Shown here: in pieces, positions 29,498 through 34,945 of the stretch
How positions within the stretch are numbered: position 1 is the first letter of the stretch
Layout of the letters: every line of letters begins with the position of its first letter
NCBI GenBank assembly: GCA_018262095.1
Contig: JAGTRW010000035.1
Location: forward strand, 1 to 40,788
Direction of reading: 5' to 3'
Length of the DNA stretch: 40,788 nt
Source of the DNA: Pseudomonadota bacterium
Lineage (GTDB): Bacteria; Pseudomonadota; Gammaproteobacteria; Burkholderiales; Rhodocyclaceae
Translations under genes and position numbers: made by a program
Notes under the pieces: model-generated
Told to the model about the DNA's origin: nothing
Seen by the model: the letters and a program-made list of their open reading frames with translations, nothing else
Database searches by the model: none

Positions 29498-32002
29498 CTA
29501 TCGGTCTTTGCGTAACAGGCGTTTGAGGCACGAGAGAACGCTCGCCTCGCCGTCGGCCAGGAGCGGGGTGCGCTTCCGCTTCATACTGGACATCATCTTG
29601 CTGTCCAGCGACCTGCCCGTTTGCAGCAGCGCCGTCGCTTCGTCGACCGGCAATGGCCGGCTGAAATAGTAGCCCTGTACCTCGTCACAATGATTGGCAA
29701 TCAACAGGCCCAACTGTCCCTCGGTTTCGACGCCTTCGGCAACGACCTTGAGTTGCAAATTGTGCGCCAGGGTGATGATGGCACGGGTAATTGAAACATC
29801 ATTGGCATCGGCGATGATATCCCGGACGAAGGCTTGGTCCACCTTCAGGCAGTCGATCGGGAAACGCTTCAGATAGGCCAGACTGGAATAGCCGGTGCCA
29901 AAGTCATCCACCGAAAGTCTGACGCCCATCGCTTTCAGGCGTCTGAGCAGAGCGATGATGCCCTCTACGTCCTGCATCAACTGGCTCTCTGTCAATTCCA
30001 GTTCCAGACAGGACGGCGCCAGCCCGCTCGACGCCAATGCTTTGCTTACCGTCTCGCATAAATCGGTTAAGTGGATCTGCCGTCCGGAGACATTGACCGC
30101 CATGCTGAGCGTTCCCAGCCCGTCGTCGTACCATCGTTGCGCCTGGAGGCAGGCGGTGTTCAGCACCCATTCGCCGACCGGCACGATCAGCCCGGTCTCT
30201 TCCAGAATCGGAATGAATTCCATTGGCCCGACCAACCCGCGTAGCGGATGCTGCCAGCGCAGCAACGCCTCGAAGCCAGTCACTTTGCCGGTAGAACAAC
30301 TGACCTTGGGCTGGTAGTGAAGTAGGAACTCGCTCCTCGCCAGAGCATGGCGGAGATCACCTTCAAGCTTCATCTTGCTCTGCGTGTTTCGGTTCATCTC
30401 CACCGTGAAGAACTGATACGTGTTGCGCCCGAGATCTTTTGCCCGGTACATTGCAGTATCGGCATTGCGGACAAGATTCTCGCTGTCCGTGGCATCGTCG
30501 GGGAACACCGTAATACCGACACTGGCCGAGACGAACAACTCGTGGCCATCGATTACATGCGGCCGGGCACAACTTTCAATCAGCTTTCTGGCCACCATGG
30601 CGACATCTTCGGTACTGCCGATCCCCGGCAGGATGATGCCGAACTCATCCCCACCCAGACGCCCAACGGTATCGGTATCACGTACGCACAGAACAAGACG
30701 GCTTGCGACCTCACGGAGCAGCGTATCGCCGATGGAGTGGCCGAGGGTATCGTTGACGCGCTTGAAATTGTCGAGATCGACAAATATTACCGCCAGCAAG
30801 GATTCGTTACGTCGAGCCGCCTTCAGTCCTTGCTCCAGGCGGTCGTAAAGCAGGACACGATTGGGACGCCCAGTAAGGACGTCATAGTAGGCGAGGTACA
30901 GGAGTCGATCCTGTTTGTCGATGTGATCCATCGCAAACGCGATGTCGCCGGCCAGTTCCGACAGCAACTTCAACTCCTCGTCCTGGAAAAATTCAATCTC
31001 GCTGGCGTACAGCGTGATTACGCCTACGGCTTCACCAGCGACGATCAGTGGAAAAATGGCCATCGAGCGGACTCCGGCTTCGGCGTATCTCTTGCCGAGT
31101 GTAAGTCGGGAGTCAGCTTGTGAATGGTTGGATACGATCGATTTCTTCTCCCGGATGGCCTGGGCAACCATGGTGGTCTTCGCACTCTCACTCAATGCTA
31201 GGAGTCCTTCGATGGCGCTCAGGAGTTCGTCATCTTTGCCCGCTGAAGCAACCGGAACAATCGTCGATGTATCACGATCAACCAGGGCAATCAATGCCAT
31301 GCGAAACCCACCGGCTTCGACCGCGATCTGGCACGCCTCCCTGAACAGGTCATCGCGGTCGTTAACACGGACGATCAGAGTATTGATGCCGCTCAACATG
31401 GCGTAAACGCGATTGAGGTAGGCGATCCGGCGTTCTGATTTCTTGTGTTCGGTGATATTCAAGTGCATGACGACGGCACCTTTTGGGGGGGTGCCCGGCA
31501 AAGGCGTCACTGTCATCAGGAACCAGCGCTGTTCAGACGGTGAATCGCAGGCGTATTCGAGCGAAAAGCGGCTTTCCCCACCTGCCAGCACCGAACGAAT
31601 GCCTTCGGTGATGGGATGCGCCTCGTGGCCATTTTCTCTCGGCGCGGCGTCGCAAACCTGCAGGTAGTCGAGGCCCAAACCAAAATCCGGGCTCTGAAGT
31701 GCATTCGCCTGGGCAAATTGCCGCCACCCCTCGTTCACCGAGACGATGAGCCCCCGACTGTCGAGCAATGCGATGTTCGCCGGTAGTGAATTGAGGATTG
31801 CGGCTTGCTTGGCCACTTCGCTTTGACGCAACTGCTCCTGCGCGCCCTGCAACAAAAATGTTCGGCCGTCGGGGTGAGTCACCGCGTCTACCTCGCCGGC
31901 CGTCAGTTCTTCAAGGCGTTGCCCGGCATTGTGCAACGTCTCAATCAATGCGGCAATTTCCGTATTGGTGTCCAACTCGAGCGGCGATTGTCCAGCCATC
32001 AT
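29498..32002 (-). CDS. PAS-GAF-GGDEF-EAL cyclic-di-GMP enzyme
   Basis: 834 residues, no membrane segment. PAS covers about 65-183, GAF 200-360, GGDEF 365-530 and EAL 545-795. The cyclase site GGDEF (450-454) and the inhibitory RxxD (R441-D444, exactly five residues before it) are intact. The phosphodiesterase side keeps E578-A579-L580, the LTES region, DDFGTG from 699 and EGVE near 756. Both activities are therefore possible. It should sense a small ligand or redox state and adjust cyclic-di-GMP. The start overlaps the kaiB stop (ATGA), so it is the third gene of a kaiC-kaiB operon. The last 24 residues (RTPLLADGEASVLSCLKRLL plus four) look like the first strand and helix of a receiver domain that then stops. 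Confidence 0.93.
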   Translation of the reverse strand: MMAGQSPLELDTNTEIAALIETLHNAGQRLEELTAGEVDAVTHPDGRTFLLQGAQEQLRQSEVAKQAAILNSLPANIALLDSRGLIVSVNEGWRQFAQANALQSPDFGLGLDYLQVCDAAPRENGHEAHPITEGIRSVLAGGESRFSLEYACDSPSEQRWFLMTVTPLPGTPPKGAVVMHLNITEHKKSERRIAYLNRVYAMLSGINTLIVRVNDRDDLFREACQIAVEAGGFRMALIALVDRDTSTIVPVASAGKDDELLSAIEGLLALSESAKTTMVAQAIREKKSIVSNHSQADSRLTLGKRYAEAGVRSMAIFPLIVAGEAVGVITLYASEIEFFQDEELKLLSELAGDIAFAMDHIDKQDRLLYLAYYDVLTGRPNRVLLYDRLEQGLKAARRNESLLAVIFVDLDNFKRVNDTLGHSIGDTLLREVASRLVLCVRDTDTVGRLGGDEFGIILPGIGSTEDVAMVARKLIESCARPHVIDGHELFVSASVGITVFPDDATDSENLVRNADTAMYRAKDLGRNTYQFFTVEMNRNTQSKMKLEGDLRHALARSEFLLHYQPKVSCSTGKVTGFEALLRWQHPLRGLVGPMEFIPILEETGLIVPVGEWVLNTACLQAQRWYDDGLGTLSMAVNVSGRQIHLTDLCETVSKALASSGLAPSCLELELTESQLMQDVEGIIALLRRLKAMGVRLSVDDFGTGYSSLAYLKRFPIDCLKVDQAFVRDIIADANDVSITRAIITLAHNLQLKVVAEGVETEGQLGLLIANHCDEVQGYYFSRPLPVDEATALLQTGRSLDSKMMSSMKRKRTPLLADGEASVLSCLKRLLRKDR

Positions 32003-32289
32003 GCCGTCAAGTCTTTCAGTCCCAACGCGAGCAATACGGTCTGTGCATGGCTGAGTGTGCCGACGATTCTTCGTACGGGCGGAGGCGTCAGCACCACCAG
32101 AGTCGGTGTCATGAAAATGCCTTCAGCCAAAGCGCGCTTTGGTTCCCGGAACACATCGACGATTTCGATTTCGTACTGGTCAGGCAGGTGTGCTTGGCAA
32201 AATGCGGCCAGGTTATCAATCGCCTGAGCGGAGTTCGGTGCATCGCCGGCGACATAAAGCTGGAACTTGAACAGGTCGCGTCGGTTCAT
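31999..32289 (-). CDS. kaiB: KaiB-like protein
   Basis: 96 residues. FKFQLYVAGDAPNSAQAIDN, then YEIEIVDVFREPKRALAEG, IFMTPTLVVLTPPPVRRIVG and LSHAQTVLLALGL match KaiB throughout. In cyanobacteria KaiB changes fold to bind phosphorylated KaiC. The usual GDLS segment reads GTLS here, so the aspartate known to influence fold switching is replaced by threonine. It overlaps kaiC by four bases upstream and the GGDEF-EAL gene by four bases downstream. No kaiA is present. Confidence 0.9.
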   Translation of the reverse strand: MNRRDLFKFQLYVAGDAPNSAQAIDNLAAFCQAHLPDQYEIEIVDVFREPKRALAEGIFMTPTLVVLTPPPVRRIVGTLSHAQTVLLALGLKDLTA

Positions 32290-34052
32290 GGCGTGCTTTC
32301 TTCACCGTGTGCGGTCGCCGCATCGGCCCCGCGCATTTCCTTCATCTGGGTGCGGCCACGTGACAACTCGCCTTCATGACTTTGCGTGACGCGAACCAGC
32401 AACGCTTTCTCGACTTGTTTCGCGATGAGTTCCGTCTGCAATGACTTCAAGCGCACTTCAAGCTCGGCCTCTTCGGCATCGAGTCGGACGCGCTTGAGCT
32501 TGGCAGTTGCCTCTGCGGCTTCCGCCGCAACCCGTTCGGCGCGTTCCTTTTCCCAGCGCAGCGTGCCCATCAGCACTTCGCCACCGGCGGTGTAGGCGTC
32601 GGTCAGCGTTACCCCCGCATCGCTCAGAATCAGCTCGCGCACCTGGTTCGAATGTGCTGTGCCGCGCGACTTGACGATGGACAGGCCACGGTTGCGCTCG
32701 CCAGCTTGCATCAGGTAGTTGAGGTGAATCCAGGTATCCGCGAGCGTCGAAATCTGCAGCGGCGAGCCGCTTTCCGTCCGGTTCGACATCTCGTCAAGCA
32801 GACTCGTGCACACCAAGGTGATACCGTTGCCTTTTGACCAGTCGATCAATCGGTCCGCCACGCTTTGCGCAGTCAAGTCATTACTCGATTTGTACCAGGT
32901 GGACACTGGGTCGATCACCAAGCAACGGGCGCCGTGCTCCTTCGCCAGCGTTTTGATGCGCACCAGGTAGGTTTCGCCGCTGCCGGCGATGGAGCGCGCG
33001 GAAGTTATAAGCAAGCTGCCGTCTTCCACGTAATGATCCAGTCGGATGCCGACCGAGGCCAGGTTGCGGATCACCTCATTACAATCCGAATCAAAACTGA
33101 CAAACAGAGTGCGTTCGCCGCGCTGACAGGCGGCCTCGGCGAACGCACCGCTCAAGGTCGTCTTGGCTGTTCCAGAAAAGCCGGTAATCAGAATGCTGGC
33201 ACCGCGGTAGTAGCCGCCGCCGAGCATCGTATCGAGCCGCTCGACGCCGCTGGATACGCGCTCATTGCTCACTTTGGCATCCAATCGAAGTCGCGCGTGC
33301 GCGATGTCAACCTCCAGCCCGGCATTACCGATCAAGAATGGCGACTCGTTCTCGTCGAAGCCGGAACCGCGATACTTCTGTACGCGCAGATTGCGATGCG
33401 AGACACCCAGCGCCACGCTGTGGTTAAGGATGACCGCGCAATCCACCATGAATTGCATGAAGCCGAACGGTTGCTGGATGATGGAACTCGCGTCATCGCC
33501 TCCCGCTTTTGCCGTGATGATGCCCGTCAATTCGTGCGCCAACAACCAATCATGCAGACGGTATATTTCTCGTCGTTTTGTTGCCGGGTCAGGCAATAGC
33601 GCCAATACGACATCCAGGGCATCGAATACGATGCGCCGCGCACCCATTTCCTGACTCTGGGCTTCAAGCGCCGCGAGCATACCGCCGAGATCAAAATCCC
33701 CCGATTGAACCAGATCTGACTTCGGCTGGGCGTCAAGGAAAAACAATGACTTTGGCTGCATCATCGCAAGATTCCAGCCAAAGCTTTCGGCATTGGACAC
33801 TATGCGCGTCGACGTTTCCTCAAAGGCGACAAAGATTCCCGGCTCATTGCAACTCTGCGCGCCATGAACGAGAAACTGCAGGGCAAGTATGGTCTTGCCG
33901 GAACCCGGCCCGCCAACAAGCAGTGTCGTGCGACCGCCCGGTAATCCACCCCGAGTAATTTCATCGAAACCGGCGATACCGGTGGGTGCCTTTGTTGAAC
34001 GTTGTTCCGAGAGAGAACAGGGGGCGTTTAGGCCATTTCTGCTTTCAGGCAT
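32286..34052 (-). CDS. kaiC: KaiC-like double RecA ATPase with coiled-coil tail
   Basis: 588 residues from the ATG at 34052, five bases after GGAG; a GTG two codons earlier is less well placed. The CI domain has Walker A GGPGSGKT (47-54), the glutamate pair E78-E79 in FVAFEETS, and Walker B near D144. CII has Walker A GFSGTAKT (291-298), but the glutamate pair reads D321-S322 in FVSFDSDCNE. The autophosphorylation pair is kept as S435-T436 in QISTLADTWIHL. Instead of the cyanobacterial KaiA-binding tail it ends in a long charged coiled coil (about 500-563). It is probably an ATP-driven timing or stress signalling switch acting with KaiB. Confidence 0.92.
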   Translation of the reverse strand: MPESRNGLNAPCSLSEQRSTKAPTGIAGFDEITRGGLPGGRTTLLVGGPGSGKTILALQFLVHGAQSCNEPGIFVAFEETSTRIVSNAESFGWNLAMMQPKSLFFLDAQPKSDLVQSGDFDLGGMLAALEAQSQEMGARRIVFDALDVVLALLPDPATKRREIYRLHDWLLAHELTGIITAKAGGDDASSIIQQPFGFMQFMVDCAVILNHSVALGVSHRNLRVQKYRGSGFDENESPFLIGNAGLEVDIAHARLRLDAKVSNERVSSGVERLDTMLGGGYYRGASILITGFSGTAKTTLSGAFAEAACQRGERTLFVSFDSDCNEVIRNLASVGIRLDHYVEDGSLLITSARSIAGSGETYLVRIKTLAKEHGARCLVIDPVSTWYKSSNDLTAQSVADRLIDWSKGNGITLVCTSLLDEMSNRTESGSPLQISTLADTWIHLNYLMQAGERNRGLSIVKSRGTAHSNQVRELILSDAGVTLTDAYTAGGEVLMGTLRWEKERAERVAAEAAEATAKLKRVRLDAEEAELEVRLKSLQTELIAKQVEKALLVRVTQSHEGELSRGRTQMKEMRGADAATAHGEESTP

Positions 34053-34945
34053 GTTCACTCCAACATTCGCGTTTGGTACTAGCGAGAGGCCTCTGGCCTA
34101 TTGTTTGGTAATTGCGAGATCATTTGTCGACGCGGGAAAACCTTGCTTCTTCTGGCGACGCTTGCGACAACTGGGCATCCATGCGCTCGACAAGAACTAG
34201 ATTCAACGAACGCCCGCGGGACTGCCGGTCAAGGTTGTAGACGAAAAGTCCATCGTGTGAATTGTTTGCAAACACGCATCAACTCCTGCCGATATTTGAA
34301 GTGGTCCCGGTGATGTATCAAGCCACCAGAGCCGCGGCGTTTGTTCCGGATGACCTGCGGTCATCGAACGTCGGTTACCCCTTGAATCTCGAATTCTCCA
34401 CTTGTATTCCGCAGGTCTCTGTACGGCAGAACACATAGTCCGACATCGTTCGCACCTTAATGGCTGTCGTGAGCAGCCAATGCTCAATCGGTGGAGGATG
34501 GCCCTTATGGTCCAGAAGTCAAGGAATCATCGTCGAAATGAAGAATGCTTCGCGGGCACGATCTTATTTCCTGGCCGTGCGCGAATTCCTAATGAATCGG
34601 ATTGATTGGACTGCTTACTGAGCCGGCCTCAATGAAATTGAGACGGTAGCAGCTTCGGTGTGGCGTGAAATCGAGAGAGCGAATTCACGTACATCGTGGT
34701 CGGCTCAATCGTGCCGCCGATCCGTCGCGTTGGTGACTAACTTACCCGCCAGGGGAATGGCTGCGATCGGCCCGGTGGTAAGGTATCGCCCGCCAACACA
34801 GACGGCCGCTAGTAAAATGCACTGCCGAATCCCTTACGGCAAAACCAGGCAAAACCAGGCAAAATCGGGCAAAGGGCCGCTTCGGAGCAGCGCAAGAGAC
34901 CAATGACTGCAATGGAGAAAAAAAGTCAGCGGTTGGCCTTGGCCG
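34053..34945. other. Gene-free stretch upstream of kaiC
   Basis: No frame here combines a start, a ribosome site and protein-like sequence. It should contain the kaiC promoter, but I cannot point to clear -35/-10 boxes. A 37-codon plus frame from 34312 (MYQATRAAAFVPDDLRSSNV and onward) and a minus frame near 34700-34790 read weakly like protein. The base composition is lower in GC than the flanks, consistent with decayed genes. Confidence 0.5.
34841..34870 (+). repeat. Three tandem 10-base units
   Basis: AAAACCAGGC twice, then a third copy with two changes (AAAATCGGGC). Short tandem array in the gene-free region; function unknown. Confidence 0.7.

Follow-up and report, generated by a model that had tools for sequence, protein, structure and literature searches.

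An N-terminal module found almost only beside kaiB is shared by signalling proteins of different output and may dock them to KaiB

Proteins encoded downstream of kaiB differ in their output, which may be a GGDEF-EAL enzyme, a histidine kinase or a Crp-type regulator, and yet partners of all three kinds share an N-terminal stretch that runs from a helix through a GE(V/I)DA core and a short strand with an LL pair to a second helix. We think that this shared module, confined as it nearly is to the surroundings of kaiB, is a new element. It is probable, in our judgement, that the module is a plug by which swappable outputs would dock to KaiB, and that in the DNA studied here such docking would alter cyclic di-GMP (c-di-GMP). 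The window, a stretch of 40,788 nucleotides (contig JAGTRW010000035.1 of the Rhodocyclaceae assembly GCA_018262095.1), carries an operon of kaiC, kaiB and one such partner gene (Table 1).

Table 1 Features of the kaiC-kaiB-partner operon in the window
Feature	Position	Strand	Description and basis
kaiC	32286-34058	-	590 aa, GTG start at 34058 (ORF call, Pfam)
kaiB	31999-32289	-	96 aa (ORF call; Pfam KaiB 73.8 bits)
Partner enzyme gene	29498-32002	-	834 aa, module-PAS-GAF-GGDEF-EAL (Pfam, motifs, PDB alignment)
N-terminal module of partner	31787-31987	-	Residues 6-72, ~67 residues (profile A3)

Operon and host genome

The kaiC/kaiB and kaiB/partner junctions are both ATGA overlaps, read as tcat on the + strand at 32286-32289 and 31999-32002. 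This confirms the four-base overlap that a sequence-only reading of the window had noted at each junction, and the overlap of the genes supports its view that the three form one operon. The start given there for kaiC, 34052, is an in-frame ATG two codons after the GTG. Promoter- and terminator-like sites at the operon did not exceed the level in shuffled sequence, and no repeats of 14 or more were found upstream of kaiC.

A search of the host genome revealed a single KaiB place, which is the kaiB gene itself, and three PilZ places, the proteins of which could act as c-di-GMP readers. KaiA (PF07688) gave 0 matches in this genome, with a positive control from Synechococcus elongatus; as the assembly is 97.7% complete, the absence of kaiA from the host is not certain.

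KaiC, KaiB and the partner enzyme

KaiC is composed of two KaiC domains (CI and CII, RecA-like; Pfam, above the cut-off) and a C-terminal coiled-coil-like tail, and it adjoins kaiB, as expected of a KaiA-less KaiBC system. Its best match in the PDB was 8dba (E 1e-103), with an alignment that reaches query residue 572, within the tail, which points to a coiled-coil tail of the R. sphaeroides type. The closest solved chain to KaiB was 8fwj_M, from an entry of R. sphaeroides KaiC; passages of PMC10076222 give Rhodobacter sphaeroides as the organism of both 8dba and 8fwj.

The CI site is intact, with the Walker A motif GGPGSGKT at 49 and EE at 80-81, and this EE is found in 77 of 80 aligned KaiC rows, the remaining 3 being gapped. 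The Walker A motif of CII reads GFSGTAKT (at 293), and D323-S324 takes the place of a catalytic glutamate pair. Cyanobacterial KaiC has EE as the catalytic pair of CII. Among the 80 rows, the CII pair is DS in 51, DE in 23, DT in 4, DA in 1 and EE in 1. Given that CII carries D-S here, a phosphorylation clock of the cyanobacterial type is not to be assumed. CII has kept the Ser/Thr pair S437-T438, which are candidate sites for phosphorylation; the corresponding residues are ST in 61 of the 80 rows, and some relatives have lost the second phosphosite (SA in 9/80, SK in 4/80). Considering that CI is intact, that CII is altered and that S437-T438 is kept, it is safer to read this protein as an energy switch than as the source of a daily phosphorylation rhythm.

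Pfam assigned PAS_4, GAF_2, GGDEF and EAL domains to the partner, all above the cut-off, with PAS_4 as the weakest match (30.0 against a cut-off of 23.1 bits). The GGDEF part reads RDTD-TVGRL-GGDEF, that is, an I-site RxxD at 441 and GGDEF at 450 with five residues between them. The motifs of the EAL part are EALLRW (578), AVNVSGRQ (635), ELELTES (667), VDDFGTGYSS (698), LKVDQ (719), AEGVE (755) and VQGYYFSRPL (775). These motifs, presumed to be catalytic, align with the solved GGDEF-EAL chain 4rnh. With the GGDEF, RxxD and EAL motifs all located, the earlier statement that the cyclase, phosphodiesterase and inhibitory-site residues are intact holds true. Judged by its motifs, the partner looks able to act as a bifunctional c-di-GMP enzyme, and its PAS and GAF domains could be true signal inputs. 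A KaiB-like domain of the SasA type was not recognised in the partner (no PF07689 match at E <= 0.001). Matches in the PDB (best 60 of 91) start at partner residue 350 or later and do not cover the module.

The shared N-terminal module

We distinguish three types of module: type I is that of the window, type II has a second half like SG.AILLPEA and precedes Crp-type and some PAS-GAF partners, and type III is that of R. sphaeroides. One example of each type gave no Pfam match at E <= 1. Two search profiles were built, A3 from types I and II and A4 from type III. Since A3 still detects the first half of the type III module, we treated the three types as one family; homology between the second half of type III and those of the other types is less sure.

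AlphaFold2, given residues 1-205 of the partner and an alignment of 46 rows, predicted a helix at 7-33, strands at 40-42 and 48-50 and a helix at 52-72, followed by the PAS domain, with a mean pLDDT of 89.3 for the 205-residue piece. The predicted fold of the module is thus a helix-hairpin-helix. Foldseek searches with this model returned, among the 50 matches listed, mostly PAS-containing proteins and nothing on the module. For a Crp-type partner, an alignment of 7 rows gave a poor model (mean pLDDT 60), which likewise has strands, at 45-47 and 54-56. The stretch that follows the module, PAS_4 in the window, can be aligned across 46 partners.

Occurrence beside kaiB

Whole-genome searches found the module beside kaiB in 15 of 17 distinct places, a count that may miss some places because the number of first-look candidates scored was capped in many genomes (e.g., at 16 of 58). 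Places found repeatedly, namely those of the window, G166 and G175, were counted once. With A3, 369 genomes of the class yielded at least 8 places, 7 of which lie 30-245 bases downstream of kaiB, and 148 relatives yielded 5 places, all beside kaiB. The same profile found at least 3 places in 339 genomes of the phylum, 2 of them beside kaiB (the window and G740); the kaiB search of the phylum covered 398 genomes from another draw, which perhaps do not include all of these 339. With A4, all 5 places in 185 class genomes were beside a kaiB match, that of G212 having an internal stop. The host genome was scored fully (115/115 candidates) and contains 1 module place. Nine of the 15 kaiB-linked places (G296, G395, G175, G166, G740, two in G072, G030 and G212) were detected by a profile to which they had not contributed. 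Of the 369 class genomes, no more than 33 have any KaiB match, so that chance adjacency is no serious option.

The two places away from kaiB look unrelated. The match in G429 (E 1.3e-6) is by eye a coiled-coil protein, and neither KaiB nor KaiC was matched in the 12 kb around it; that in G710 (E 3e-4) lies by eye in a receiver-cyclase frame, with no Kai match in 2.6 kb. We rejected the idea that the module is a common leader of PAS kinases, since it hardly turned up away from kaiB in the genomes and plasmids searched.

Plasmids gave a similar picture for type III. With a query from L094, this module was found in 13 of 72,556 plasmid records and in all 13 downstream of kaiB, 12 times at 34 bases or less, as measured from the matched segments, and once after a second kaiB gene. 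Nine of the 13 records are from R. (Cereibacter) sphaeroides, strain KD131 included. The type I module was found on none of the plasmid records.

Gene order was compared for 107 kaiB ORFs in 82 regions, with tandem genes counted apart and some regions lacking a detectable kaiB. In the order kaiC>kaiB, 33 of the 53 kaiB genes are followed by the module, and in the order kaiB>kaiC 0 of the 36 are; the 33 cases represent 26 loci, 13 of which (the window included) built the profiles, so this count is not independent. A module also follows 3 of the 18 kaiB genes with no kaiC within 600 bases (L027, L040 and L048), a weak hint that it follows kaiB rather than kaiC. The hint is weak because L027 also encodes a module-GGDEF protein (1014-2528) at kaiC, 5 kb from the nearest kaiB. 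Two further arrangements were seen, a module beside a kaiB with an internal stop (L058) and a module protein upstream of kaiC (L165). Counting against the docking reading, A3 and A4 found no module at 20 of the 53 kaiB genes in kaiC>kaiB order and in 15 of 79 loci seeded by KaiC, and thus KaiBC exists without it.

Exchange of outputs

These 79 loci came from the best 80 of 573 confirmed matches in a KaiC-profile scan of named genomes, and the module was called in them by local search at E < 1e-5. A module partner was present in 64 of the 79, in 63 cases within 53 bases of kaiB; since 32 of these 64 loci went into the profiles, this count is not independent either. Four of the 15 loci with no module have no kaiB in the stretch. 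Within the same sample (best 80 of 573), the output of the 64 module partners is GGDEF(-EAL) in 31 (27 GGDEF-EAL and 4 GGDEF truncated where the contig ends), a histidine kinase in 17, a histidine kinase with EAL in 2 and Crp-type in 6. The remaining 8 were not classed; Pfam identifies one of these, L162, as a HisKA_3 kinase, and five of the 8 run into the contig end. The kaiC-kaiB-GGDEF/EAL adjacency, which the sequence-only reading had allowed might be unique to this genome, is therefore conserved in 31 of the 79 loci (best 80 of 573), and its recurrence in many loci makes it more than chance.

On a KaiC tree built from 60 rows, which represent 57 loci out of the 79 together with the window, L035 and L060, the output class has to change 9 times. 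The number could be lower, since some of the proteins labelled histidine kinases, L108, L118 and L152 at least, are cut by the contig end and may hide an EAL domain. Weak support was obtained for 24 of the 57 inner branches; if one goes by the starred branches only, the histidine kinase label must still change at least 4 times and the GGDEF-EAL label at least 3 times. Even KaiC proteins 84-88% identical to that of the window occur with different outputs, namely GGDEF-EAL-receiver (L035), kinase-receiver-Hpt-receiver-EAL (L107 and L109) and a contig-cut kinase (L108).

Several loci depart from the simple three-gene layout or extend its range. L107 (9994-17707) has two module proteins in tandem after kaiCB, a kinase-receiver-Hpt-receiver-EAL protein and then a GGDEF-EAL protein cut by the end of the stretch. 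The module precedes Crp-type regulators in L163, L168, L169, L175, L177 and L181, with a PAS domain between the two in L169. Four kaiC-kaiB loci from other members of the class or phylum (L061, L065, L068 and L106) carry a GGDEF-EAL gene directly upstream of kaiC, with no module detected by A3 or A4. Terracidiphilus gabretensis S55 (L140), an isolate that we take to belong to another phylum, Acidobacteriota, encodes kaiC-kaiB-module-GGDEF-EAL with a KaiC 69% identical to that of the window, which suggests transfer between phyla.

Covariation with the Kai proteins

Pairwise distances were compared over 35 close loci, i.e., 34 and the window, filtered by KaiC identity (>=65%), module score, adjacent kaiB and length. 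Module distances correlated with those of KaiB (r 0.56) and nearly as highly with those of KaiC CI (r 0.50); against the PAS domain of the module's own chain, r was 0.07. When CI and CII were accounted for, the partial correlation between module and KaiB was 0.44 (permutation p 0.002; shared ancestry makes partial Mantel tests liberal). For the KaiC tail the partial correlation was -0.004 once CI, CII and KaiB had been taken into account, and for PAS it was -0.014. Over a wider set of 47 loci, the raw correlations of the module ranged from 0.63 (PAS) to 0.87 (CI), with partial values of 0.33 for KaiB and 0.11 for the KaiC tail. The covariation lends support, not proof, to a link between module and KaiB, considering that no more than a few hundred bases separate kaiB from the module and that joint inheritance by recombination could mimic such a signal.

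Discussion

We propose to read kaiC-kaiB-X as a Kai switch that lacks KaiA and has an effector, X, of its own. The KaiC ring would read the nucleotide (energy) state of the cell, and KaiB would bind KaiC in one of its states. Through its N-terminal helix-hairpin-helix module, X would be recruited to KaiB, most probably while KaiB is bound to KaiC. Docking would then change the PAS-GAF-GGDEF-EAL protein and shift the balance between synthesis and breakdown of c-di-GMP, and in other species the same plug would carry histidine kinases, GGDEF-EAL enzymes or Crp-type regulators. The module is a concrete candidate for how a KaiA-less KaiBC passes its state to the cell. C-di-GMP is one of the main signals that decide whether bacteria live attached or motile; if the proposal is true, an energy-reading Kai ring would set c-di-GMP in bacteria outside the cyanobacteria. 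More tentatively, and at slightly below even confidence, we suggest that KaiBC switches lacking KaiA use the module as their general output plug, in Pseudomonadota and in other phyla too. It would then be a domain dedicated to reading KaiB, of an origin separate from the SasA and CikA readers, that has been joined in evolution to kinases, to c-di-GMP enzymes and to transcription factors, and in this lineage c-di-GMP would be a direct readout of the Kai ring.

The module could instead descend from an ancestral protein linked to kaiB, in which it served for dimerisation or as a signal helix; recombination would have swapped the outputs behind it, and it could stay in place by gene order with no contact to any Kai protein. 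The gap between module and kaiB, only tens to a few hundred bases, is compatible with this, and the first and last elements of the module are predicted helices that could form a coiled coil. However, a generic segment of this kind should also occur away from kaiB, which the module hardly does, and the KaiC tail, encoded equally near kaiB, showed no extra correlation (partial -0.004 over 35 loci and 0.11 over 47). We regard this explanation as unlikely. Somewhat less likely still is that the partner is an input, in which PAS-GAF senses a cue, the module delivers it to KaiB or KaiC, and GGDEF-EAL or the kinase serves as feedback or side branch. The alignable stretch after the module in 46 partners fits a sensory role, and a passage of PMC5520375 mentions that a kinase from the same operon as kaiBC might bring a redox signal to KaiBC. 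The Crp-type proteins L163, L168, L175 and L177 speak for an output, as they consist of little beyond the module and a Crp-like part (Pfam on L163 and L177, alignment of all four).

Least probable, in our view, is a true daily clock under which c-di-GMP would rise and fall rhythmically. S437/T438 and the coiled-coil-like tail are kept, KaiBC of R. sphaeroides is described in PMC10076222, as far as its passages on the system go, as an hourglass driven by ATP/ADP, and altered c-di-GMP levels are stated in part of PMC13001216 to change the clock of S. elongatus. Against such a timer stand the missing kaiA match in the host genome, the D-S pair of CII here and in 51 of 80 KaiC rows with the second phosphosite lost in some, and a host that, judging from its genus, is probably not phototrophic. 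Docking of the module to KaiB, with an energy-reading KaiC behind it, remains the reading that we prefer.

The catalytic part of the partner resembles that of known c-di-GMP enzymes such as MucR, DosP and the motility regulator 4rnh, the last of which differs in having no I-site. The resemblance to Kai-reading proteins is of another kind. SasA and CikA, the Kai-reading signalling proteins of cyanobacteria, read Kai via a KaiB-like fold or a pseudo-receiver, whereas the module is predicted to be a helix-hairpin-helix and the partner has no KaiB match in Pfam.

Outside the cyanobacteria, the gene neighbourhood itself has a precedent. The text and figure legends of the 2011 Ramlibacter genome paper (PMC3164672), in the portions available, already place histidine kinase or GGDEF/EAL genes directly downstream of kaiC-kaiB in clusters like that of the window. 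We therefore rejected the kaiC-kaiB-GGDEF/EAL adjacency as a novelty, and the view of the sequence-only reading that the c-di-GMP link is a departure from known Kai sets is not supported. Those portions do not describe a module that recurs in kaiB-linked partners whose outputs differ; one legend names an 'N-terminal region' on a single kinase architecture, and RtaNt, which is likened there to SasA/KaiB, differs in being a module of kaiB-less kaiC-kinase pairs. Nor is the module described in the corresponding portions of PMC3899966, PMC6627678, PMC10076222, PMC4794148, PMC5520375, PMC10173096 and PMC13001216. We found no earlier description of it in this part of the open-licence Kai literature; one elsewhere is possible.

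The closest comparison is with Rhodobacter. Operons of kaiC, kaiB and a PAS/histidine kinase gene are reported in passages of PMC4794148 for R. palustris and R. sphaeroides, and in the latter the state of KaiC follows the ATP/ADP ratio, according to the relevant part of PMC10076222. The annotated operon of R. sphaeroides KD131 consists of kaiC, kaiB and an HWE histidine kinase, the first ~60 residues of which match A4 with E 1e-19 and A3 with E 2e-7 (two-protein set). This presence of the module in an operon whose KaiBC structures are solved strengthens it as a candidate. R. (Cereibacter) sphaeroides and the window thus agree in gene order, in a KaiC with a long C-terminal tail, in KaiB and in a module-bearing partner; they differ in that R. 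sphaeroides combines a kinase output with a type III module and EE in CII of KaiC, whereas the window combines GGDEF-EAL with a type I module and D-S.
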